From: Candidatus Lindowiibacteriota bacterium
GTDB taxonomy: Bacteria > Lindowbacteria > 2-12-FULL-62-27
Direction of reading: 5' to 3'
Assembly: GCA_023249255.1 (NCBI GenBank)
Contig: JAHFCY010000091.1
Coordinates: 1-11,590 of the forward strand
Length of the DNA stretch: 11,590 bases
Under the pieces are notes generated by a model, which searched no databases, was not told the origin of the DNA, and worked only from the letters and a program-made list of their open reading frames with translations. Positions 1 through 10,747 of this stretch are shown here, piece by piece. Made by a program: the position numbers and the translations under genes. Position 1 is the stretch's first letter, and the number at the start of each line of letters is the position of its first letter.

Positions 1-765
1 GATGCCCGATTTGCCGAACGGAGCGTTGATACAGCAGAAGGAGCATCGGTAGGGACACCCGAGACTCGTGTAGATCGACGCGTATGGCCGGCGATTCTTG
101 ATGTGATCGAAACAATGCCAGTTGTGAGCACGGTAGGCTTGCATGGGCAAAAGATCCCACGCCATGCCGGGAAGAGTCGCCGCCAGTTCGCGCTCGGGAA
201 TGACCGCCGCCGAAAAAGAGAATCGCGGCTTGCCATTCTCCCGCCACCACAGGCCGGGAATTTTCGGATACATCGAGTTGTCGTCAAGCCGATCCAGCTT
301 GAGCAGTGCGTCGAGCGTGTAAATACCCTCGCCCTGACCGACGAAATCGGTTTTACAATCGTTCAGTGTCCGTTCCGGCAATGCGGATGGATGCCCGCCG
401 ATCAGGATGGTTTTGATTTCCGGTGTGTGATCGTGAAAGGCATTAACAATATTTTCCGCCATTGTCATGTTCTGGGTTGATGCCGACGGCTGATGGCCGT
501 ACACGACGATGGCCGCCAGCCGCGGCGAAAGATCCTGCGCTCGCGTGACGACTTCATCCGGCGTCAGTCCCTCCGCCTCTTGGTCAATGATCGCGGCGCT
601 AATCCCGTGCCGCCGCGCAGTCTGCGCCAGAAGCGAGGCCCAGATCGGCGGCTCGATTGCGGCGTATTCGGTTGCAAGCTCCTGAAAAATCAGACGATGG
701 TTTCCGGGGCTGATCAACACCAGATCAACGGAATCGGTCATGTCATTCGATTGTGCAGGTTTCAT
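1..765 (-). CDS. B12-binding radical SAM protein (3' end outside window)
   Basis: The open frame runs to the left edge without a stop; 255 codons are visible. Residues about 12-150 look like a cobalamin-binding Rossmann domain, with GGHPSALPE near 123-131 followed by the GQGEGIYTLDALL stretch usual in BchE-like B12 radical SAM proteins. The radical SAM core begins at about 230 with C237-x3-C241-x2-C244 (CPYRCSFC), the cysteines that hold the 4Fe-4S cluster cleaving S-adenosylmethionine. No DxHxxG motif is visible in the B12 domain. The substrate cannot be told; family members catalyse methylations, cyclisations and ring changes in the cytoplasm. I chose the ATG at 765 because it overlaps the stop of the upstream TPR gene as ATGA, implying translational coupling; an in-frame ATG at 741 is the alternative. 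Neither start has a convincing SD. A degenerate copy of the first 13 codons lies at 2696-2734. Confidence 0.88.
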   Translation of the reverse strand, partial: MKPAQSNDMTDSVDLVLISPGNHRLIFQELATEYAAIEPPIWASLLAQTARRHGISAAIIDQEAEGLTPDEVVTRAQDLSPRLAAIVVYGHQPSASTQNMTMAENIVNAFHDHTPEIKTILIGGHPSALPERTLNDCKTDFVGQGEGIYTLDALLKLDRLDDNSMYPKIPGLWWRENGKPRFSFSAAVIPERELAATLPGMAWDLLPMQAYRAHNWHCFDHIKNRRPYASIYTSLGCPYRCSFCCINAPFGKSGI

Positions 766-778
766 TTTCGACTGTCAA
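727..778 (-). repeat. Degenerate gene-junction repeat, copy 2 (intact junction)
   Basis: This is the partner of 2696-2747. Here the sequence is functional, covering the last codons and TGA of the 643-aa TPR gene and the first 13 codons of the radical SAM gene. Confidence 0.7.
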
Positions 779-2693
779 TGTTTGGTCGGGCGGGGCCGTT
801 CCGGTACGGCAGCCGGGCCTGATACAACTGAAGGTGATATCGGACTATCGGCAAGTATGCGGTGTTTCCGGTGTGTTCGGCCGTGTCGATGGTTTTCATC
901 AATATCGCCGCCGCCTCGTCGAATCGGCCATCAGCGGCGTACGCGGTGGCAAGCATATCCAGAATCACCGGATCGCGGTGTTGGGTGAGCATTGCGGCTC
1001 TTTCCGCCAGACCTCGCGCCACCTTCGGGTTTCGAATATCGGTGTCTTCGTCCGTTGCGAAAATCCACGCCAGATTGTGAAGAATTTCAGGCTGGTCCGG
1101 CGCCAGCCGCATGGCCGACTCAAATTCTTCGACCGCTTCCTCACTTCGGCCTGTTTCATAAAGGGCGGCGCCGAGATTGATGTGATACTGCGTGGTGTTG
1201 GGCGCAAGGCGGATCGCCTCCCGATATTGATCGACCGCATCGCGCGGCCTGCCCTTCCGCAAGAGCGCGTTGCCGCAGTTGTAGCGGGTCAAAGCGACGT
1301 TGGGATTGGACGCAATCGCCTGTTCGTAATGGTTGATCGCCCCGTCCAGGTCACCGTGATCGGCAAGAACCTTTCCAAGTTGGGTTTGAATCGCAAAATT
1401 GTCGCGGGTGACGGTCAGCACGTATTCGAATAGCGTCACGCTATTTTTCCATCGTGCTGTCTGGACTGCGCTCAATCCTGCGAAAGCGCACAGAACAACC
1501 GCTGTTCCCGTGAAGACGGCCTTCGGGTTCCATTGTTTCCGGTCCACCGCCTCCGTCGCGGCCCATGCGATCATCATCATCAATCCGACGTACGGAATGT
1601 ACGTGAATCGGTCCGCGACGAGTACGAACGTGCAGCCCAGGACCATCGGCGCCATCGTGACGAGAAACCAGAACCATCCGAATGCGAGATAAGGTCTTGA
1701 TCGCGCCTGATTCAGCACTAAGGCGGTGATCACGGCGAGGAGTCCCGCCGAACCGACGATTTGCCATGGCGGCGACAGGGTCCCGGGGACATGGGGGTAC
1801 CATGCGGCCAGATGCACAGGCCAGAAAAGTTTCCAGAGATACCAGATGTATGCGACGGGCGCGGCCAATAATTGGACGAACGGCGTGGATCCGGGGAACG
1901 GTGTCTGGCCACGCCGGAATGTCGCCCAGCAGGACACGATCGACAACGCGAAAAATGGAATTTTTTCGATCAGTAAATGACGCAAACGCCCCCAATTCAC
2001 GGCGCCATCGAATTTGAAATCCACCTTCCCGGCGACACTATCTGAATCCTGCCGGGCATCACTGATCCGGTTGAGCGGCCACACGTCGAGCATCAGAAAT
2101 ATAATCGGCATCGTTATCAACACCGGCTTGGCCATCAGCCCCAGCGCCATCGTGAGGACAACGATGGCATAGAGTTTTTTTCCGGGCCTCGCCGCATACC
2201 GCGCGTACGCAAGCAACGTCAACCACCAGAATATCCCGGAAAGAACGTCCTTGCGCTCGACCACCCACGCGACCGATTCCACCCGCAAGGGATGGACAGC
2301 GAACGCGGCGGCGACCGCAGCGCCTAACCACATCCTCCCGCCAATCCGGTAAAGGAACAGAAAAAGCAACATCACGTTTCCGATGTGGAAAAAAACGTTC
2401 ATCAGGTGGTATCCGCCCGGCCGCATTCCGAATAACTGAACGTCGATCAGGCGCGACAGAATCGTGATCGGCTGCCAGTAGTCGACTTGGGGCGAAGGTT
2501 CGGACAGATCGGCGGTGAATGCCCATCGGACATTGTCCCGCGTGAATCCGCCGCGAAGGTGCGGATTGTCCCGCACATACACGTCGTCGTCGATATCGAT
2601 GAAATCAAACCTCGCAGTTTGGACAAAAACGACGAGGGTCAGCGCCGCCAGAACGGCGCAGATCCCCGCACGGTTGGATAAAAACCGTAACAT
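762..2693 (-). CDS. GT-C-like polytopic membrane protein with C-terminal TPRs (643 aa)
   Basis: The N-terminal two thirds is strongly hydrophobic with about ten candidate membrane helices. It begins with a single span at 10-25, followed by an acidic first loop DIDDDVYV (33-40). Landmarks are FAVHPLRVESVAWVVERKDV (131-150), MAKPVLITMP (187-196) and a second-half ADRFTYIP motif (360-367). These match the bacterial relatives of TMTC/PMT-type GT-C glycosyltransferases, which use lipid-linked sugars and act at the periplasmic face of the membrane. From about 433 to 545 there are roughly three TPR units (for example AINHYEQAIASNP), then a helical tail. The acceptor and sugar are unknown. The ATG overlaps the stop of a 13-codon upstream ORF as TAATG, and the stop overlaps the next gene's start as ATGA, so all three may be translationally linked. 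It is a diverged paralogue of the 715-aa protein at 4106-6253. Confidence 0.87.
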   Translation of the reverse strand: MLRFLSNRAGICAVLAALTLVVFVQTARFDFIDIDDDVYVRDNPHLRGGFTRDNVRWAFTADLSEPSPQVDYWQPITILSRLIDVQLFGMRPGGYHLMNVFFHIGNVMLLFLFLYRIGGRMWLGAAVAAAFAVHPLRVESVAWVVERKDVLSGIFWWLTLLAYARYAARPGKKLYAIVVLTMALGLMAKPVLITMPIIFLMLDVWPLNRISDARQDSDSVAGKVDFKFDGAVNWGRLRHLLIEKIPFFALSIVSCWATFRRGQTPFPGSTPFVQLLAAPVAYIWYLWKLFWPVHLAAWYPHVPGTLSPPWQIVGSAGLLAVITALVLNQARSRPYLAFGWFWFLVTMAPMVLGCTFVLVADRFTYIPYVGLMMMIAWAATEAVDRKQWNPKAVFTGTAVVLCAFAGLSAVQTARWKNSVTLFEYVLTVTRDNFAIQTQLGKVLADHGDLDGAINHYEQAIASNPNVALTRYNCGNALLRKGRPRDAVDQYREAIRLAPNTTQYHINLGAALYETGRSEEAVEEFESAMRLAPDQPEILHNLAWIFATDEDTDIRNPKVARGLAERAAMLTQHRDPVILDMLATAYAADGRFDEAAAILMKTIDTAEHTGNTAYLPIVRYHLQLYQARLPYRNGPARPNIDSRK

Positions 2694-2734
2694 TACACGG
2701 GATCACTCATTTCGTTCGATTGTGCAGGGTTCAT
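2693..2734 (-). pseudogene. 13-codon ORF, fossil of a radical SAM gene start
   Basis: The ORF encodes MNPAQSNEMSDPV then TAA. The first 13 residues of the radical SAM gene at 765 are MKPAQSNDMTDSV: 9 of 13 are identical and K/N, D/E and T/S are mild changes. Over these 39 bases 32 match without a gap. Both silent and replacement changes are present, which suggests a divergent coding homologue rather than a recent copy. The ATGA context of the intact start is also preserved. Its TAA overlaps the ATG of the 643-aa TPR gene (TAATG). I read it as what remains after deletion of a second radical SAM gene from a TPR/radical SAM tandem array. It could still be translated and couple ribosomes into the TPR gene, so a leader-peptide role cannot be excluded. 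Confidence 0.6.
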
Positions 2735-2747
2735 CCGAGCCTGTCAA
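2696..2747 (-). repeat. Degenerate gene-junction repeat, copy 1
   Basis: This 52-base stretch, read on the minus strand, aligns gap-free with 778-727. It starts with a shared TTGACAG, then six unlike bases, then 39 bases with 32 matches; overall about 40 of 52 match by my count. In the intact copy it spans the end of a TPR gene and the beginning of the radical SAM gene. Confidence 0.7.
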
Positions 2748-2764
2748 CGCCCATTCCGGAGATG

Positions 2765-2793
2765 TTGATTTTCGCATTTTAATGTCATATAAT
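2765..2793 (+). promoter_or_regulatory. Sigma70-type promoter of the toxin-antitoxin module
   Basis: A -35 box TTGATT (2765-2770) and a perfect -10 box TATAAT (2788-2793) are separated by 17 bases. The expected start of transcription, about 6-8 bases after the -10, falls on or beside the A of the antitoxin ATG at 2799. The mRNA would then be leaderless, which agrees with the lack of any SD before this ATG. Confidence 0.7.
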
Positions 2794-2800
2794 ATGACAT
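2782..2800. promoter_or_regulatory. Palindromic operator over the -10 box and start codon
   Basis: ATGTCATAT-A-ATATGACAT is a perfect 9+1+9 inverted repeat. It covers the whole -10 box and the first two bases of the antitoxin start codon. This is the usual position for an operator through which an antitoxin represses its own operon. The first gene encodes an HTH protein, so autoregulation is the natural inference. The site also lies 48 bases upstream of the divergent minus-strand mini-ORF and could affect that operon too. Confidence 0.72.
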
Positions 2801-3311
2801 GAGCAAGAAATGGGAGATTCATTCGGAAAAAGGTGTGGTACAGGTGTGGGTGCGTGACGAAGGCGGCGCGGTTCTGAGGCAGAGCGACAGCGCTGTGACG
2901 TCGGCGCGAGCCGCCCGGATCCTCGGCAAGAGCAGGAGGCACGTGTATCGCTACGTCGAGCGGGGCATGCTGAATCCTCTTGGGAAATTTTTGGATGAAT
3001 GGTTGTTTGATGCCGGGCAGGTCGCAAGATTCCGGAAGACGCTCGCCGCAGGCCGGATTCCTTTGCGCCGATATGTCATTCCGTCCCGATTCAGGACATT
3101 TTTTCCGGATTATCGTCTTGGGGAGATGAATCCGTGGACCAATGCTCCCTTGATCATCACCCGGATTTTGGATACCGGCACCCGGGCCGAGTGGAAATGG
3201 ATTTTCCGTCATTATCCGCGTTCGGTGGTTCGCGCGGTCATCCGGGAGCACGGCAGGAGGATCATGTCAGAGAGGTCGCATCATTTCTGGGCGTGGATGC
3301 TCGGATTATGA
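2799..3311 (+). CDS. HTH antitoxin of AbiE-like type (DUF6922-like C-terminus)
   Basis: A 170-aa protein. Residues about 33-80 form an excisionase/MerR-like helix-turn-helix: SARAARILGKSRRHVYRYVE, then a wing with WLFDAGQVARF. The C-terminal half has the pattern seen in DUF6922-type partners of nucleotidyltransferase toxins: a PSRFRTFFPDY entry (95-105), a helix with IITRILDTG (119-127), EWKWIFRHYP (131-140) and a final FWAWML (163-168). It is expected to bind DNA and neutralise the toxin encoded next. The ATG at 2799 fits the promoter and operator spacing and has no SD. The stop overlaps the toxin start (ATGA at 3308-3311). The function is inferred from pattern and context; I have no database match for it. 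Confidence 0.8.
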   Translation: MSKKWEIHSEKGVVQVWVRDEGGAVLRQSDSAVTSARAARILGKSRRHVYRYVERGMLNPLGKFLDEWLFDAGQVARFRKTLAAGRIPLRRYVIPSRFRTFFPDYRLGEMNPWTNAPLIITRILDTGTRAEWKWIFRHYPRSVVRAVIREHGRRIMSERSHHFWAWMLGL

Positions 3312-3955
3312 AGTGGCGTGGGGAGGCTCTGTCGGATGATTGCCGGATGGCGCTTCAACGGCTTTCCCGCACAAAATCGTTGCGTCATTTCTATCTGGCC
3401 GGCGGCACGGCCCTTGCGTTAAGACTTGGGCACCGAATTTCCGTTGATCTTGATTTTTTTTCAGTAAGAAATCCTTTGACCGGGCCGGCGCGCGCCGCGC
3501 TTTTGGAGGAGATTTCGAAGGCCGCGCCGGTGCGGGTGGACGAACAGATTGATCGGACGCTTCATCTTCGACTGGCCGGAACGCACGTCAGTTTTTTTCA
3601 TTACACGGCGCCGCTCCTTGCCCGATGTGAACGCCGGGAAGGGGTCCAAATCGCTTCAACGACGGATATCGGCGCCATGAAACTCTCGGCCCTGGTCGGC
3701 CGGGGATCGCGGAAGGATTTTCTGGATCTCTATGTCCTGACGACCCGTGTCATCCCTCTAAAAAATCTTTTGCAGAAGGCACAGGCAAAATTCCGAGATT
3801 CGACGGATTTTACGGCCCAGGCTCTGCGTGCCCTCGTCTACTTCAAAGACGCTGAAAGCGAGGATCCCCCGACTTTGCTTCAACCCATCTCGTGGAATGA
3901 CGTGATGACGCATTTTAGGAAGGCCGTTCGCGCGATTGGACGGACGTTTATGTGA
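3308..3955 (+). CDS. AbiEii/AbiGii-type nucleotidyltransferase toxin
   Basis: A 215-aa protein. Near the N-terminus it carries YLAGGTALALRLGHRISVDL (29-48) continuing into DFFS, the GG-x-T...D-x-D pattern of the DNA polymerase beta-type nucleotidyltransferase fold, with likely metal ligands D47 and D49. A second family block, DIGAMKLSALVGRGSRKDFL (120-139) then DLY, supplies the conserved K125, R132 and D137/D140. AbiEii-family toxins modify nucleic acid or nucleotides; relatives such as MenT add nucleotides to tRNA 3' ends. Whether this one does so is inference. The frame is open upstream to 3134, but the ATG at 3308 overlaps the antitoxin stop as ATGA and gives the normal N-terminus. All expected acidic residues are present, so it looks intact. 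It converges on the PIN remnant and TPR gene on the other strand. Confidence 0.87.
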   Translation: MKWRGEALSDDCRMALQRLSRTKSLRHFYLAGGTALALRLGHRISVDLDFFSVRNPLTGPARAALLEEISKAAPVRVDEQIDRTLHLRLAGTHVSFFHYTAPLLARCERREGVQIASTTDIGAMKLSALVGRGSRKDFLDLYVLTTRVIPLKNLLQKAQAKFRDSTDFTAQALRALVYFKDAESEDPPTLLQPISWNDVMTHFRKAVRAIGRTFM

Positions 3956-3968
3956 CGGCGAGGGCGCG

Positions 3969-4079
3969 TTACCAGAGAGATTTGGCGTGCTCGTAATTCA
4001 GAATTCTGACGCCCGCGGTGATGAGGGGCATGCCGGAGGCGATCTCGGTGGAAAGCAGAAAGAGGATTTGTTCAACAAT
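3969..4079 (-). pseudogene. C-terminal remnant of a PIN-domain (VapC-like) toxin
   Basis: On the minus strand a 36-codon frame ends at TAA 3971-3969. It is closed upstream by a TGA at 4082-4080 and has no start beyond an internal ATG. The peptide contains EIASGMPLITAGVRILNYEH and ends KSLW. That resembles the last third of VapC/PIN proteins, whose usual ending is a small-residue helix, GxPLxTxDxRI, and a terminal LW or IW. The acidic residue normally after TA is G here. The N-terminal part is missing: only 27 bases separate this frame from the stop of the 715-aa TPR gene. It is most likely a truncated toxin left by recombination. The short length keeps confidence modest. Confidence 0.42.
3998..4009. 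repeat. 12-bp perfect palindrome
   Basis: TCAGAATTCTGA lies within the PIN-like remnant, downstream of the toxin stop. No T-run follows, so it is not a convincing terminator. I see no clear terminator between the convergent transcription units here. Confidence 0.3.
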
Positions 4080-4105
4080 TCAACGCCTGACCCCCACCCG
4101 CCGAC

Positions 4106-6253
4106 TTATCTCTCGATGGTCTGAAGCATCTCCAGGGCTTTGGGGTGTTTCGGATTGCGATACAGCACTTCCAACACCTCGTCCAGGGCGGCCGACTTTT
4201 TCCCCTGCGCCAGCCGAACCGCCGCCAGATTGCACCGCGCCTCTAGGTTTCCGGTATCGATGCGGATCGCCTCTCGAAACTGCTCGGCCGCCGATTCCAG
4301 CTCTCCGATTCGAGCGAGGGAAACCCCGAAATTGTTCAGAAAATGGGAATCCCCCGGCCTTTGCCGGAGTGCGGCGTCAAAATTCCGGATGGCGGCCCGA
4401 TGGTTTCCCTCCCCCGCCTGCAATAGTCCCAGATTGTAGTACGCCCGGTCGAAATGGGGATCTATCTTGATCGCCCTCTCGTAATGGACCATGGCGTTCG
4501 AAGCGTCCCCGAGACGCACGAGGGTCAGCGCCAGATTGAAATGCGCATCCGAATCACGATCGTTTGCCGCCACCACCCGCTCAAACTCCATCCGGGCCGC
4601 GGCTGGCCTGCCCGCCTGCGCCAGCTCCACACCCAGATTTTTCCGGGATATGGCGTCGTCCGGATCGATCCGTAACGCCTCGGCATACTCCCGCATCGCT
4701 CCTTCGCCGTCTTCCTTCCGGGACAAAACAATCCCCATGGACTTGTGGGCTCGGCCCATGCCGGAGTCGAGGCGGATCGCTGTCTTGAATTCCTCGACCG
4801 CCGAATCCAATTTCTTCTCTCCGAAATAAACGTTTCCCAAATTGCCATGCGCCAGCGCATACCCCGGAAAAATCCTCAGCGCTTCATGAATATGGTCCTC
4901 CGCTTCGTCCCACCTTCCATCCTGGGCCAGGACGGATCCGAGGTTGTTTTCGACCAAGGCGTTGTTCCGGGTCACGGACAGCGTGTACCGGTACAGCGTT
5001 TCGCTGGTTAACCACCGATTCAACTGCAGGCGGGTGCAGATCGCCAGAGCGCCGATCGCGAATATCGCGAGGACGGTCAGGCCCACGCGCCACTCCGGAC
5101 GTTGTTTCGCCCAGTCGGCCAGTCCCCACACGACCATGATATAAATTCCGACCAGCGGCACATACGTGTGCCGGTCTGCAAGGGCCTGTGTGCCGACTTG
5201 GACGATGCCGATTACCGGCACGAGCGTGATGAGATACCAGAACCAGCCGAAGGGAAGATATCCGTACCGCCGCAACCGCCAGACCAAGACCGTGACGCCC
5301 GTGAGAGCCGCAGCGGCCGCAACCGGCTGCCAGAGCGGAAAGCCTCCGGTCGGATAAGGATAAAAAACAGCGAGATCGTGCGGCCAGAGCGCCATTCCCA
5401 TATATTTTACGTATGACACCAGCGCGTTTTCGAGTCGAAGGCCGATGGGAAGTTGTCCGAGGGATGAGACGGCGCCAGCCAGGCGTTGGGCGATCCAAGT
5501 GACGCCCGCGATGACCGCTGACATGAGAAACAGCGGCCATTTTTCCAGGGCGCGCAATCCGATACGGCGGAATTCGGACGAGGACGAATCGGCCGCTCCT
5601 GCGCCATCCTTGGCGTCCGCGGCACTTCCTCCATCCGGTCGGTCGGAACTCCAGCGTCCCGGCGGCCACAGATCGATCAAGAGGAGAGTCACCGGCAGCG
5701 TGACGATCATCGGTTTGGACATGAGGCCCAGGCCGAACGCCGAGAGGACACAGGTCATGCCCATGCGAGACGGGGTTGAAACGTAACCGGCGTAAGCGCG
5801 TATTGACGCAAACCAGAAAAAAGTGCTGAGAACATTTTTTCGTTCCGGAACCCAGGCAACGGACTCGACCCCGAGCGGATGGACCGCAAAGAGCGCGGCG
5901 ACGATCAAACTCCGCGCCGTTGACCCGGTGAGGCGCTGGAGAAGATGGAACAACAGAAGCGTGTTCGCGAGATGGACAAGCAGATTGACGAGATGGGGGC
6001 CGGCCGGGTCGAGACCGAAGCATTCGACGTCCAGCATGTGGGACATCCACGTGAGGGGATGCCAGTAAACGGGCCGCATGGCCGTGAAGGCCCAGAGGAT
6101 GTTCCGGACTGTGAGGCCGGCTTGTACCCTGGCGTTCTGGGTGACGTAGACTTCGTCATCAAAGGCGATAAATTCAAGGGTTCGAACGGGCCAGAATGCG
6201 GCGCAGGTCAGGACGGCCAGAAGGATCATGAATAACCGGCGGTCTCCGTTCAT
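4106..6253 (-). CDS. GT-C-like polytopic membrane protein with long TPR array (715 aa)
   Basis: Same architecture as the 643-aa protein. There is a membrane span at 7-25 and an acidic first loop FDDEVYV (31-37). YWHPLTW (63-69), AVHPLGVESVAWVPERKNVL (123-142), MSKPMIVTLP (178-187) and ADRHTYVP (359-366) follow, with about ten membrane helices up to 408. A low-complexity Gly/Ala/Ser/Asp loop sits at 202-227. From about 431 to 715 there are roughly eight TPR units, against three in the paralogue (for example AVEEFKTAIRLD, AMVHYERAIKIDP). It is probably a TMTC/PMT-type glycosyltransferase or related transferase using lipid-linked sugar, with the TPRs acting in substrate recognition; this is inferred. 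The frame can start at a TTG at 6271, but the ATG at 6253 gives a cleaner N-terminus. It follows the fibre-like gene by 21 bases with no SD, so it is probably read from the same transcript. Confidence 0.87.
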   Translation of the reverse strand: MNGDRRLFMILLAVLTCAAFWPVRTLEFIAFDDEVYVTQNARVQAGLTVRNILWAFTAMRPVYWHPLTWMSHMLDVECFGLDPAGPHLVNLLVHLANTLLLFHLLQRLTGSTARSLIVAALFAVHPLGVESVAWVPERKNVLSTFFWFASIRAYAGYVSTPSRMGMTCVLSAFGLGLMSKPMIVTLPVTLLLIDLWPPGRWSSDRPDGGSAADAKDGAGAADSSSSEFRRIGLRALEKWPLFLMSAVIAGVTWIAQRLAGAVSSLGQLPIGLRLENALVSYVKYMGMALWPHDLAVFYPYPTGGFPLWQPVAAAAALTGVTVLVWRLRRYGYLPFGWFWYLITLVPVIGIVQVGTQALADRHTYVPLVGIYIMVVWGLADWAKQRPEWRVGLTVLAIFAIGALAICTRLQLNRWLTSETLYRYTLSVTRNNALVENNLGSVLAQDGRWDEAEDHIHEALRIFPGYALAHGNLGNVYFGEKKLDSAVEEFKTAIRLDSGMGRAHKSMGIVLSRKEDGEGAMREYAEALRIDPDDAISRKNLGVELAQAGRPAAARMEFERVVAANDRDSDAHFNLALTLVRLGDASNAMVHYERAIKIDPHFDRAYYNLGLLQAGEGNHRAAIRNFDAALRQRPGDSHFLNNFGVSLARIGELESAAEQFREAIRIDTGNLEARCNLAAVRLAQGKKSAALDEVLEVLYRNPKHPKALEMLQTIER

Positions 6254-6274
6254 CGCCGAAAAAATGCGCAAAAA

Positions 6275-7774
6275 CTACTGGTTCATCCGGACGAATATGC
6301 CGATATTGTTGAGGGTCCAGTCGGTGCTGGCGTTGGAGACGCTGATCTGGGCGAAGAAGGTCGCTTCACCGTTATAGGTATACGATGTCCATGCGTCGTT
6401 CATCTCCGACTCGTTGCTTGCAAAATTAAGATAGTTCAGGACGACCTCGTTGCCGTTGGAAGTATTGAGAATTTGCACGTCGATGTTGCTCGACGCGGTG
6501 ATAGTCCCCCAACTCGCGCTGATTTTGTACTGGCAGCTTCCACCGGGTGGGCAAAAGTCGCTGGGATTGATGCGAAACCAGCTGCTGCTGAGATTGCCGT
6601 ATCCGGCGCCCCAGCCGGTTCCAGTCTTGGAATGGGCGATGCGAATATAGGTGATCACATTCGCCGTGACGATCGAATCGGATTTAATGCCGCCGTTGAC
6701 CTCCAGCTTGAGGGTCGGCGACGTTGTGTTGATGCCGACACGGGTGGTGGGCATGATGTCGATTTCTTTATTGGCCTGGATGATGAAATCACTGTTCCAG
6801 TCATTGTAGATCAGGCAGTTGCCGTCTCCGAAGAAGGCGGCTGCGGTGTCGCCGCTCGACCACGAGGCGTCTGTGCCGACGAAGAGACCGTTGCCCTTGC
6901 CGTGAAGCAAATGCAGCCTCCAGACCGGGACGGTGATCCCGACCCCAAAATTTCCGGTGCTCTCCTGCATGATCCACGAATCCTGCGCGTTGTAGGCGCT
7001 GAATGCGAGTCCGGTACCGTATACGCCGTCCATGTGGGTGTTGGTGTCGCCGGCGTATATCTGTCCGCGATCGCCTGCGGCGTCGTATCCGTCGTTGCCC
7101 TGTGCCATGACATGACCCCTCACAAAAAGCCTGACCCCGTTGGCGCTGTCGGGGATCGTTGCGGAGTCGATGATCACCACGCCGTTACTGCGAACAAGCA
7201 GACTGTCTCCCCTCGTTCCGCCGACGGCGAACGTGTCTTGGACGTTGGCTGAGCCTTTTACGTCAAATTTGCTTCCGGGAGTGCTTGTCCCGACGCCGAC
7301 ATTCCCGCTTCTCTTGACAATGAAACTGTCGCCTTTCACGTTGCCGACCGCGAAAGTGTCGAGGAGGCTGAAGGAACCGCGGGTGTCCAGATAGGCGTTG
7401 ACGAGATTATAGGACATTATGGCGTAAGGAACGGCGGCGAAGGGTGTGTAGGGGCTGAATGCGGTGCCTCCAACTGACACTTTTAACCACATCGGTCGGT
7501 TGAATAACGTGTCAATGTTACTCGAGTCGCCGATGTACACGCTGAATATTCCGTTCTGTACCGAAACACTGCTGACGGTCTGGCTGAACAGGGAACTTCC
7601 GCCGCTGCCGACGTCGTATAAATCGAACTGCATGCTGTACGTCCCGTTGACGCCGGACCCGGTGTCGTTGGCAAGCCGGCCTTGATAGAAAATCAGACGC
7701 GGGGCGGTATCGGTAGCCGTCGCGTAACCGGTCAGTGCCAAGACAAAGACCGCGGCAATCGCAACCTGTTTCAG
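6275..7774 (-). CDS. Secreted fibre-like surface protein, copy A (499 aa, probable CTG start)
   Basis: The mature protein opens with LIFYQGRLAND (27-37) and FDLYDVGSGG (50-59). SVQNGIFSVYIGD (71-83) and AAVPYAIMSYN (113-123) follow. This is the N-terminal module common in large bacterial secreted and 'tail-fibre-like' proteins. Next come repeats of the (V/I)G(V/I)xTxxPxxKxxV type (159-172, 346-359) and a duplicated DTFAVG..(K/R)GDS unit (139-150, 180-191). The C-terminal sandwich-like domain (about 375-499) holds CPPGGSC at 408-414. No endosialidase-type chaperone domain is seen. No ATG, GTG or TTG gives a workable export signal. A CTG at 7774, seven bases after GAGGA (7786-7782), yields a good signal peptide with a KQ n-region, hydrophobic VAIAAVFVLALTG and YATA cleavage site. 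The nearest TTG, at 7741, would cut the signal off. Residues 88-374 are identical to copy B. Confidence 0.8.
   Translation of the reverse strand: MKQVAIAAVFVLALTGYATATDTAPRLIFYQGRLANDTGSGVNGTYSMQFDLYDVGSGGSSLFSQTVSSVSVQNGIFSVYIGDSSNIDTLFNRPMWLKVSVGGTAFSPYTPFAAVPYAIMSYNLVNAYLDTRGSFSLLDTFAVGNVKGDSFIVKRSGNVGVGTSTPGSKFDVKGSANVQDTFAVGGTRGDSLLVRSNGVVIIDSATIPDSANGVRLFVRGHVMAQGNDGYDAAGDRGQIYAGDTNTHMDGVYGTGLAFSAYNAQDSWIMQESTGNFGVGITVPVWRLHLLHGKGNGLFVGTDASWSSGDTAAAFFGDGNCLIYNDWNSDFIIQANKEIDIMPTTRVGINTTSPTLKLEVNGGIKSDSIVTANVITYIRIAHSKTGTGWGAGYGNLSSSWFRINPSDFCPPGGSCQYKISASWGTITASSNIDVQILNTSNGNEVVLNYLNFASNESEMNDAWTSYTYNGEATFFAQISVSNASTDWTLNNIGIFVRMNQ
6653..7513 (-). repeat. 861-bp near-identical block, copy A
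   Basis: Aligned at a constant offset of 1531 bases with 8184-9044. I find a single difference, g at 6728 versus a at 8259, which is silent (Asn AAC/AAT). Divergence rises sharply on both sides, to an indel and several substitutions just past 7513 and many substitutions below 6653. Confidence 0.9.
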
Positions 7775-7805: not shown

Positions 7806-9347
7806 CTACTGGTTCATCCGGATGTAAAATCCCATGTTGTTGAGGGTCCAGTCGGTGCCGGCGTTGGAGACGCTGATTTGCATGTACATCGTCGATTCGC
7901 CGTTGTATGTATAGGCTGTCCAGGAATTGTTCATGTTCGTTTCGTTGGACGCAAAATCATTATAACTGAGAAAGACGTTGTCGCCGTCGGTAGAGTTGAC
8001 AAGCTGCACGTCGATGTTGCTCGACGCGGTGATAGTTCCCCAACTGGCGGCGATTTTGTACCCGCATGAGCCGCCCGGCGGGCAGTAGTCCCTCGGATCA
8101 ATGCGAACCCAGTTGCTGCCGGGATTGCCGAATCCGGCGCCCCAGCCGGTTCCAGTCTTGGCATGCACGACGGGAATATAGGAGATCACATTCGCCGTGA
8201 CGATCGAATCGGATTTAATGCCGCCGTTGACCTCCAGCTTGAGGGTCGGCGACGTTGTATTGATGCCGACACGGGTGGTGGGCATGATGTCGATTTCTTT
8301 ATTGGCCTGGATGATGAAATCACTGTTCCAGTCATTGTAGATCAGGCAGTTGCCGTCTCCGAAGAAGGCGGCTGCGGTGTCGCCGCTCGACCACGAGGCG
8401 TCTGTGCCGACGAAGAGACCGTTGCCCTTGCCGTGAAGCAAATGCAGCCTCCAGACCGGGACGGTGATCCCGACCCCAAAATTTCCGGTGCTCTCCTGCA
8501 TGATCCACGAATCCTGCGCGTTGTAGGCGCTGAATGCGAGTCCGGTACCGTATACGCCGTCCATGTGGGTGTTGGTGTCGCCGGCGTATATCTGTCCGCG
8601 ATCGCCTGCGGCGTCGTATCCGTCGTTGCCCTGTGCCATGACATGACCCCTCACAAAAAGCCTGACCCCGTTGGCGCTGTCGGGGATCGTTGCGGAGTCG
8701 ATGATCACCACGCCGTTACTGCGAACAAGCAGACTGTCTCCCCTCGTTCCGCCGACGGCGAACGTGTCTTGGACGTTGGCTGAGCCTTTTACGTCAAATT
8801 TGCTTCCGGGAGTGCTTGTCCCGACGCCGACATTCCCGCTTCTCTTGACAATGAAACTGTCGCCTTTCACGTTGCCGACCGCGAAAGTGTCGAGGAGGCT
8901 GAAGGAACCGCGGGTGTCCAGATAGGCGTTGACGAGATTATAGGACATTATGGCGTAAGGAACGGCGGCGAAGGGTGTGTAGGGGCTGAATGCGGTGCCT
9001 CCAACTGACACTTTTAACCACATCGGTCGGTTGAATAACGTGTCGAAGTTACTGCTCGAGTCGCCGAGGTATACGCTGAATATTCCGTTCTGTACCGAAA
9101 CACTGCTGACGGTCTGGCTGTACATGGAACTTCCGCCGCTGCCGACGTCGTATAAATCGAACTGCATGCTGTACGTCCCGTTGACGGCGGACCCGGTGTC
9201 GTTGGCGAGGCGGCCTTGATAGAAGATCAAGTGCGGGGCGGTATCGGTGGAGGATGCCATCGCGGAACCAACGCACACCAAGGACAGAACCACCGCGAGA
9301 CCCATCCCGGCGGCTAAAGACGCACTCTCACGCATACGCTGACCCAT
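7806..9347 (-). CDS. Secreted fibre-like surface protein, copy B (513 aa)
   Basis: Same domain order as copy A, with LIFYQGRLAND after the signal peptide, the VGVGTSTPGSKFDV and VGINTTSPTLKLEV repeats, and a C-terminal domain with CPPGGSC. The signal peptide is unrelated to that of copy A: MGQRMRESASL, hydrophobic core AAGMGLAVVLSLVCVG, and cleavage after SAMA at about residue 31. The C-terminal 126 residues differ from copy A at about 36 positions and the first mature segment at about seven, including one inserted residue (SSSNF versus SSNI). The 287 residues between are identical. It is probably an exported structural or adhesive protein; the partner is unknown. The ATG at 9347 is preferred, with the in-frame ATG at 9335 possible; neither has a good SD. 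It is the first gene of the minus-strand group. Confidence 0.82.
   Translation of the reverse strand: MGQRMRESASLAAGMGLAVVLSLVCVGSAMASSTDTAPHLIFYQGRLANDTGSAVNGTYSMQFDLYDVGSGGSSMYSQTVSSVSVQNGIFSVYLGDSSSNFDTLFNRPMWLKVSVGGTAFSPYTPFAAVPYAIMSYNLVNAYLDTRGSFSLLDTFAVGNVKGDSFIVKRSGNVGVGTSTPGSKFDVKGSANVQDTFAVGGTRGDSLLVRSNGVVIIDSATIPDSANGVRLFVRGHVMAQGNDGYDAAGDRGQIYAGDTNTHMDGVYGTGLAFSAYNAQDSWIMQESTGNFGVGITVPVWRLHLLHGKGNGLFVGTDASWSSGDTAAAFFGDGNCLIYNDWNSDFIIQANKEIDIMPTTRVGINTTSPTLKLEVNGGIKSDSIVTANVISYIPVVHAKTGTGWGAGFGNPGSNWVRIDPRDYCPPGGSCGYKIAASWGTITASSNIDVQLVNSTDGDNVFLSYNDFASNETNMNNSWTAYTYNGESTMYMQISVSNAGTDWTLNNMGFYIRMNQ
8184..9044 (-). repeat. 861-bp near-identical block, copy B
   Basis: Partner of 6653-7513, lying wholly inside the coding sequence of the upstream paralogue. 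Confidence 0.9.
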
Positions 9348-9356
9348 ATGCCACTT

Positions 9357-9384
9357 ATTCTACCAGCCAGACGGTTTAAATCAA
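9357..9384 (-). promoter_or_regulatory. Promoter of the fibre-like gene group
   Basis: On the minus strand, TTGATT (9384-9379) and TAGAAT (9362-9357) are 16 bases apart, a good sigma70-type pair. Transcription should start near 9350, only about three bases before the ATG at 9347 (nearly leaderless) or about 15 before the ATG at 9335. The -35 hexamer is the same TTGATT as in the toxin-antitoxin promoter. Confidence 0.55.
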
Positions 9385-9661
9385 GTTTTTTATTCTGCCG
9401 GGGCGGAATGAATTGGCGGCCGTGAATTGACACGGTGCGGACCCGGAGGCTAACGTGGATGCCGTAACGGGGCGTGAAAGTTCAGGCAGTATTTGAAGGT
9501 CTGCGCGCCGGCGCGCGGATCCGCACCGGCTTTCGATTTCGGGTTTTTCTGACGGGTCGTAAGCGTTTTCATCTTCAGGGTCATGGGGAGACACGCGCAT
9601 CATGTCAACACAACGCCGATCCGGAATCTCAAATGATTGGGCACGGCTCACGGGAGACGTC

Positions 9662-9707
9662 CACACGAAGGCGCGAAGAAACAGAACTTTCTTTGTGGCT
9701 TTGTGTG
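9662..9707 (+). repeat. Dispersed-type intergenic hairpin repeat
   Basis: Two 21-base arms (9662-9682 and 9687-9707) form an imperfect inverted repeat around a four-base loop. Sixteen of 21 positions pair in DNA, and three of the five mismatches become G-U pairs in RNA read on the plus strand. The sequence style (cacgaaggcgcgaag ... ctttgtggctttgtgtg) resembles the cacgaag/ctttgtg palindromic elements scattered between genes in many environmental bacteria. It sits 11 bases before the ATG at 9719, so it would fold in the leader of that mRNA. Confidence 0.55.
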
Positions 9708-9718
9708 AGAATAAATCC

Positions 9719-10747
9719 ATGGTTGTTTGTCCGCTAATAGTTTTCATGTGTCTCGCATGGACCGCCCTTGCCGGATCGGCTTTAGATTCCCCAACAGCCG
9801 CGCCCGTGCGCGTGGCCCTCATCAGGCTCGAAAACAGATCTTCATACAATGGGCCGTGGGATATCTCCCGCCATCTCTCCCGGCAATTGCAATCGTCTCT
9901 TTCGGCCAATACCGGCATGCAGGCCGCGCCGGCCGCCGATGTTTCGGAGGCCTCACACAGTCTTCTGAATTTGTCCGATGACGTCCTCGACGCCCGGAAA
10001 ATCCGGGCTGTCGGCCGCGCCTGTGGATCCGACATCGTCATCAGCGGGACCATTGACCACTTCACGCTCGAGGGACAGAGCGGGATCAGCTATCGCGTCG
10101 GAGGACTCGAACGGTTTGTCGGCGAAGTCACGCTCACGATCACCGTCGTCGACGCTCGATCCGGCGCCGTGTTGATGGATCGGCGGACGGCAACGGGAAA
10201 AATCAGCGATAATGACGTGGGACTGGCGCTTCTCAAAGGTCCCGGGTACAGGGAAACAACGAATATTCTCCAGGTCATCTGGGATTCGCCCATCGACACG
10301 GACCTCGTTCAGGGCTCGGTGTTGGGCCGGGCCATGCAGATGGTGGTCGCAGATGCCACCGCTCAAATTTCCCGGGTAGTCTCCGGCGTGGCCAGCGGAC
10401 GTGAAGGCCGCGTTGTTCGAGTTCGGGGACAGGACATCTATATCAACCTCGGCTCCGAAGACGATCTGCGGCCGGGCGATCTCGTCTTGATCTGGCCCAG
10501 TGTCGAAGTCCTGCGCGATCCCAAAACGTCCGTCATGCTTGGATTGACCAAACCCGGTTCCGCCGCGGAAGCGGCAGTTCAGGAAATCCGGGACAAGCGT
10601 CTGGCCATCTGCCGCTCGACGGATAATTCCGTGCGGGAAGGCGACGTCGTCCGATTTGTCGGCGGCCAGCGCGAAGGTAAATGGGTCGGCGTCCGGCCGG
10701 AACGTCTCAATTCGGCCGAAGAAGGATATTCGCGCAAAGGAGAATGA
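9719..10747 (+). CDS. Secreted FlgT/CsgG-like protein (342 aa)
   Basis: The N-terminus MVVCPLIVFMCLAWTALAGS is a signal peptide. Residues 29-220 resemble the CsgG/FlgT middle-domain fold. They open with the strand PVRVALIRLENRS (29-41), then GSDIVISGTIDHF (103-115) and the strand pair EVTLTITVVDARSGAVLMDR (136-155). Residues 229-313 match the FlgT C-terminal pattern: EGRVVRVRGQDIYINLGSED (229-248), LRPGDLVLIW, a DPKTSVMLG turn (267-275), and a final VREGDVVRF. Relatives sit in the periplasm or outer membrane, in flagellar rings or secretion pores. No flagellar gene is visible here, so another envelope role is likely. The frame is open from 9602, but only the ATG at 9719 puts the signal peptide at the terminus. 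The gene is followed after one base by the hydrolase-like gene, so they are an operon. Confidence 0.72.
   Translation: MVVCPLIVFMCLAWTALAGSALDSPTAAPVRVALIRLENRSSYNGPWDISRHLSRQLQSSLSANTGMQAAPAADVSEASHSLLNLSDDVLDARKIRAVGRACGSDIVISGTIDHFTLEGQSGISYRVGGLERFVGEVTLTITVVDARSGAVLMDRRTATGKISDNDVGLALLKGPGYRETTNILQVIWDSPIDTDLVQGSVLGRAMQMVVADATAQISRVVSGVASGREGRVVRVRGQDIYINLGSEDDLRPGDLVLIWPSVEVLRDPKTSVMLGLTKPGSAAEAAVQEIRDKRLAICRSTDNSVREGDVVRFVGGQREGKWVGVRPERLNSAEEGYSRKGE
10738..10742 (+). promoter_or_regulatory. Strong Shine-Dalgarno of the hydrolase-like gene
   Basis: AGGAG ends six bases before the ATG at 10749 and lies inside the end of the FlgT-like gene. It is the best SD in the window and contrasts with the SD-less starts elsewhere. 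Confidence 0.7.

Follow-up and report, generated by a model that had tools for sequence, protein, structure and literature searches.

The gene for TPR1, a glycosyltransferase-like membrane protein, is preceded by a 51-bp element that we read, with a probability of roughly 55%, as a duplicate of the promoter-plus-start module of the neighbouring B12-binding radical SAM gene, one copy now driving TPR1. The two copies (2747-2697 and 778-728, both on the minus strand) are identical at 40 of 51 positions (78%) and stand as direct repeats bracketing TPR1 (762-2693). The window, meaning the whole stretch of DNA analysed, is the entire 11,590-base contig C358 of a draft genome of 3.35 Mb (366 contigs, 88.7% completeness); a sample of 40 stretches, approximately 0.38 Mb including the window and contig C230, was used in place of the whole genome. 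Feature coordinates are collected in Table 1.

Table 1. Features of the window that bear on the repeated element and its neighbours
Feature	Position	Strand	Remarks
B12-binding radical SAM gene, 5' part, from likely true start M9 (MTDSVDLVL)	1-741	-	Remainder in contig C230 of the same genome
Right repeat copy: TPR1 end, promoter-like -35 (778-773) and -10 (755-750), radical SAM start	728-778	-	
In-frame 8-codon extension MKPAQSND	742-765	-	Overlaps TPR1 stop (ATGA); no family feature
TPR1	762-2693	-	Membrane protein with C-terminal TPR repeats
13-codon ORF of the original prediction, MNPAQSNEMSDPV and stop	2693-2734	-	First 8 codons overlap promoter spacer and -10
ATGAGTGATCCCGTG, extended anti-SD-complementary stretch ahead of TPR1 start	2696-2710	-	Absent from the radical SAM copy
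Left repeat copy, directly upstream of TPR1	2697-2747	-	40/51 identical to 728-778
Predicted -10 CACAAT, left copy	2719-2724	-	4/6; 17-nt spacer
Predicted -35 TTGACA, left copy	2742-2747	-	6/6
Divergent promoter TTGATT-N17-TATAAT of AbiE-like pair	2765-2793	+	Lies in the 106-bp region 2693-2798 together with the TPR1 promoter
AbiE-like toxin-antitoxin pair	2799-3955	+	PF08843 in second gene; DUF6922 and weak HTH in first
TPR2	4106-6271	-	First in minus-strand transcription order

The original prediction concerned a 13-codon ORF directly ahead of TPR1. On the minus strand, 2734-2693 reads ATGAACCCTGCACAATCGAACGAAATGAGTGATCCCGTGTAA, with the translation MNPAQSNEMSDPV and a stop, and this was said to match the first 13 codons of the radical SAM gene, whose frame from 765 (-) begins MKPAQSNDMTDSV. 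A recount returns the same figures (32/39 bases and 9/13 residues), and the ORF stop TAA does overlap the TPR1 ATG (TAATG, 2695-2691). The homology of the stretch to the radical SAM gene start is supported, and its junction with the TPR1 gene is as originally described; the repeat itself also stands, with a length of 51 bp (2697-2747 vs 728-778) where 52 had been given. The homology of the two copies is far beyond chance, the point on which the prediction had been made to depend: the best match to the 13 codons in 3.47 million positions of simulated first-order Markov sequence is 26/39, the next-best match in the real window is 21/39, and the second copy has an E value of 3.1e-5 in genome-wide blastn. 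The shared unit extends past the ORF on its upstream side and takes in the final codons of the gene before it (TTGACAG is common to both), with no significant similarity further upstream of TTGACAG.

A dispersed repeat, which the original prediction had set against its own account, is rejected: there are just two copies in the genome, and no further copy was found in the genome (core searched with up to 3 mismatches), in two family relatives, in plasmids or in viral contigs. An integron attC site was also considered and rejected, as its core sites were unmatched when judged by eye. The best-conserved part of the 13 codons is codons 1-8 (MKPAQSND / MNPAQSNE, 21/24 bases). Of the seven differences between the two 13-codon stretches, five affect the third base of a codon (P = 0.045), a pattern compatible with both copies having been translated for some of the time since they arose. 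Across the full 51 bp, all 11 differences lie outside the -35 and -10 hexamers (hypergeometric P = 0.035), a modest sign in favour of the promoter reading.

The repeat opens exactly with the TTGACA hexamer and closes within codon 5, counted from M9, and both copies have the same layout: TTGACA, N17, CACAAT, 8 nt and then the M9 ATG. Measured against a sigma-70-type promoter (-35 TTGACA, 16-18 nt spacer, TATAAT-like -10 with A2 and T6), each copy agrees at 10 of 12 positions. Sites of at least 10/12 are found three times on the two strands of the 11.6-kb window, namely in the two repeat copies and at the toxin-antitoxin promoter, and all three lie within 25 nt of a gene start; the rate in shuffled sequence (1.7e-5 per base per strand) corresponds to an expectation of 0.0004 sites for the element. 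The genome contains TTGACA-N17-NANAAT 17 times, vs 3 times for a reversed control pattern, and many of the other matches stand just before a plausible gene start. Because the gene upstream of it is divergent, TPR1 needs a promoter in 2693-2799, where the left copy is the sole candidate found on the TPR1 strand. Against the promoter reading, the -10 hexamer matches at only 4 of 6 positions, and the two promoter-like sites count as a single observation because the copies are homologous.

Two other start regions may be described here. The AbiE-like pair has a near-perfect palindrome (ATGTCATATAATATGACAT, 2782-2800) over its -10, which is only 5 nt from the start codon; these two features suggest that its message is autoregulated and leaderless. 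On two different contigs (stretches L106 and L112, position 1501), near-identical promoter/start regions (TTGACACTCTC...GGAACAATCTCTTGGTGGG) are found, probably belonging to a mobile element or a duplicated gene.

Where the radical SAM gene really starts was examined by comparing 51 homologous loci, which come from many phyla. In 29 of the 51, the closest start codon stands 5 codons ahead of the conserved Asp, the same as M9; in 30 of the 51, a stop within 14 codons closes the frame, so that these loci cannot start at the equivalent of M1. Judging from these alignments, the family start is typically the M9 equivalent (MTDSVDLVL), which places codons 1-8 outside the family N-terminus. In the 13-codon ORF, the last 5 codons (MSDPV and stop, 2710-2693) align with the radical SAM gene's true start. 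A gene fossil should resemble the coding sequence for the family N-terminus; codons 9-13 do, and codons 1-8 fall outside it. The original observation is confirmed and its fossil interpretation partly supported; the case for a 13-codon fossil ORF is weak.

The duplicated module would comprise the -35 TTGACA, a 17-nt spacer, the -10 CACAAT, 8 nt, the real start codon M9 and 4 further codons. Its right copy would serve the radical SAM gene from within the 3' end of TPR1, and its left copy, directly ahead of TPR1, would supply the TPR1 promoter. Transcription from the left copy is predicted to begin at about 2712 and to yield AAAUGAGUGAUCCCGUGUAAUG; with this start, the ATG at 2734 would fall in the promoter spacer and so would not be on the message. 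The first codons of the left copy would have lost their radical SAM message, and now read AUGAGUGAUCC, which lies 7 nt before the TPR1 AUG and resembles an extended Shine-Dalgarno (SD) sequence. As AUGAGUGAUCC could pair with the usual anti-SD tail, TPR1 may initiate directly, and the MSDPV-stop/AUG arrangement with its TAATG overlap may add coupling by reinitiation.

With an assumed anti-SD sequence, the duplex of the 25-nt TPR1 leader has a predicted energy of -11.7 kcal/mol (among the strongest 3.3% of background 25-mers) and that of the equivalent radical SAM leader -4.7 kcal/mol; the 3' end of 16S rRNA, sought to confirm the anti-SD, was not found in three genomes. The leader has no Rfam match, and the RNA fold of 2712-2650 is unremarkable (z = -1.2). 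A small hairpin at 2685-2700 (-) holds the TPR1 start codon in its loop and is followed by a T run. It is terminator-like, but a terminator over the TPR1 start was rejected since the hairpin is within the number expected by chance.

As for its origin, the arrangement probably arose by a partial tandem duplication that ran from the TPR1 start to radical SAM codon 5 (TPR1a-P-TPR1b-P-radical SAM). The duplication joint would fuse the promoter to TPR1 in one step, and a second full radical SAM gene would not be needed. TPR1a would then have been lost or replaced, where the AbiE-like pair now stands. No remnant of TPR1a was found upstream of the left copy; one candidate there, CCGGAAYGG (8/9), was rejected since 10% of shuffles equal it. 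No remnant favours either the tandem duplication or a deleted-gene model.

Such a deleted gene was the core of the original prediction: a tandem TPR/radical SAM unit whose upstream radical SAM gene lost its body to an in-frame deletion reaching from codon 14 almost to the stop, with 13 codons left coupled to TPR1. This would account for a homology that runs from the preceding gene's end through the ATGA junction into the first codons, as well as for the lean of the differences towards third codon positions, which allows for a past phase of translation. Another genome does have two radical SAM genes in a single cluster (a Verrucomicrobia cluster, L049, with genes of the same family at 9001-10476 and 18648-19475, approximately 8 kb apart and 66% and 51% identical to the query). 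We nevertheless consider it unlikely that a whole second radical SAM gene once stood here. No radical SAM body or second TPR trace was found in 2694-4105, where nothing besides the 13 codons rises above chance, so that remnants are missing both beyond codon 13 and upstream. The tandem TPR/radical SAM pairs expected in related genomes occur in 0 of 52 homologous loci and in neither of two family relatives. The account also requires a second deletion of approximately 1.5 kb ending within one base of the TPR1 start, and the best-conserved codons, 1-8, lie outside the family N-terminus. Finally, TPR1 and TPR2 are only 37-39% identical and so are not a recent unit duplication of the repeat's apparent age; for them to be its two halves they have diverged too far, unless strong selection has acted on the element.

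A less likely account again is that TPR1 was inserted before the radical SAM gene by single-crossover circle integration, or by other joint-duplicating recombination, in which case the repeats would be scars and any promoter role secondary. The repeats do sit precisely at both ends of TPR1, but no integrase, transposase or inverted ends adjoin it, and there is no sign of a foreign origin, as GC at the three codon positions is equal in TPR1 and the radical SAM gene (a weak test). It is improbable that a repeating TPR/radical SAM unit collapsed and its coupled mini-ORF (MSDPV-stop/AUG) was kept as a start device, a near-leaderless AUG loading ribosomes for the overlapping downstream gene.

Least probable is the selected leader peptide that had been offered as an alternative, with MNPAQSNEMSDPV translated to control TPR1 through translational coupling: the TAATG overlap and the third-position bias (5/7 differences) speak for it, but on the predicted transcript starting near 2712 it is unlikely because the ATG at 2734 lies in the promoter spacer, between -35 and -10, and would be untranscribed, leaving only the last 5 codons for the message; moreover, the leader lacks an Rfam match or an unusual fold, and no orthologue was found for a conservation comparison.

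The surroundings of the repeat are as follows. The N-terminal part of TPR1 appears O-mannosyltransferase-like through its 37-39% identity to TPR2. Both domains of the B12-binding radical SAM protein are supported, with PF02310 on the part in the window and radical SAM families on the joined protein (TIGR03471, TIGR02026 and others, all below cut-off). The join rests on window positions 1-205, which dovetail with 6438-6642 of C230 (L009) over 205 bp; 120 bases are identical, and the outer 85 bp carry 8 silent differences, which could reflect variation between strains or a second radical SAM copy. The genes of C230 are predicted from their translations to be transketolase-like, aminotransferase-like, epimerase-like and glycosyltransferase-like, and because of this content the C358/C230 region looks like a surface-polysaccharide locus. 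Window positions 6275-7741 and 7806-9347 (-) hold a tandem pair of secreted, repeat-rich surface or fibre-like genes with a long, apparently identical DNA core (the translations are the same for the greater part) and ends that have diverged, a pattern as after recent gene conversion or duplication; the second copy has no Pfam match. In the gap that separates TPR2 from the toxin-antitoxin pair, a frame on the minus strand (3960-4070) reads ...QILFLLSTEIASGMPLITAGVRILNYEHAKSLW and a stop, and resembles the 3' end of a further gene that has been truncated.

The duplicated promoter-plus-start module would be a small, clear example, drawn from sequence alone, of how a gene can acquire a promoter through duplication of a neighbour's start region into the position ahead of it. 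Read this way, the element reflects ordinary genome tinkering and not the relic of a whole lost gene. It also carries a caution: a short "fossil ORF" that resembles the beginning of a gene may prove to be a promoter copy, and the real starts of homologues distinguish the two.

Promoter propagation by putative mobile promoters has reportedly been described by Matus-Garcia, Nijveen and van Passel (2012, NAR). As in those cases, a promoter-bearing stretch recurs in the genome ahead of a non-homologous gene; here, however, there are just two adjacent copies bracketing one gene, which makes local duplication likelier than dispersal. The radical SAM start has a second parallel. A -10 region adjoining the ORF is associated with leaderless expression in Deinococcus-Thermus (PMC12340547), and leaderless genes are known in bacteria (PMC3160421); similarly, the radical SAM -10 hexamer is just 8 nt from the start codon, from which a near-leaderless start is predicted. 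Unlike those systems, the radical SAM start also has a -35 TTGACA, and when 152 first-in-operon genes of this genome were crudely surveyed there was no clear leaderless (-10-adjacent) signal, so that near-leaderless starts as a general habit are unsupported. A third comparison is with the work of Li and Bock, in which tandem duplication puts a downstream promoter before a gene and activates it (PMC11111574). Their event was laboratory-selected and the duplicate is still present (PMC11111574), whereas here the extra TPR1 copy would be gone and the event is reconstructed. There the duplication joint makes a new promoter-gene fusion by illegitimate recombination, as it would here. The element is thus most likely a duplicated promoter-plus-start module, and promoter gain by tandem duplication is an already known kind of event (PMC11111574).
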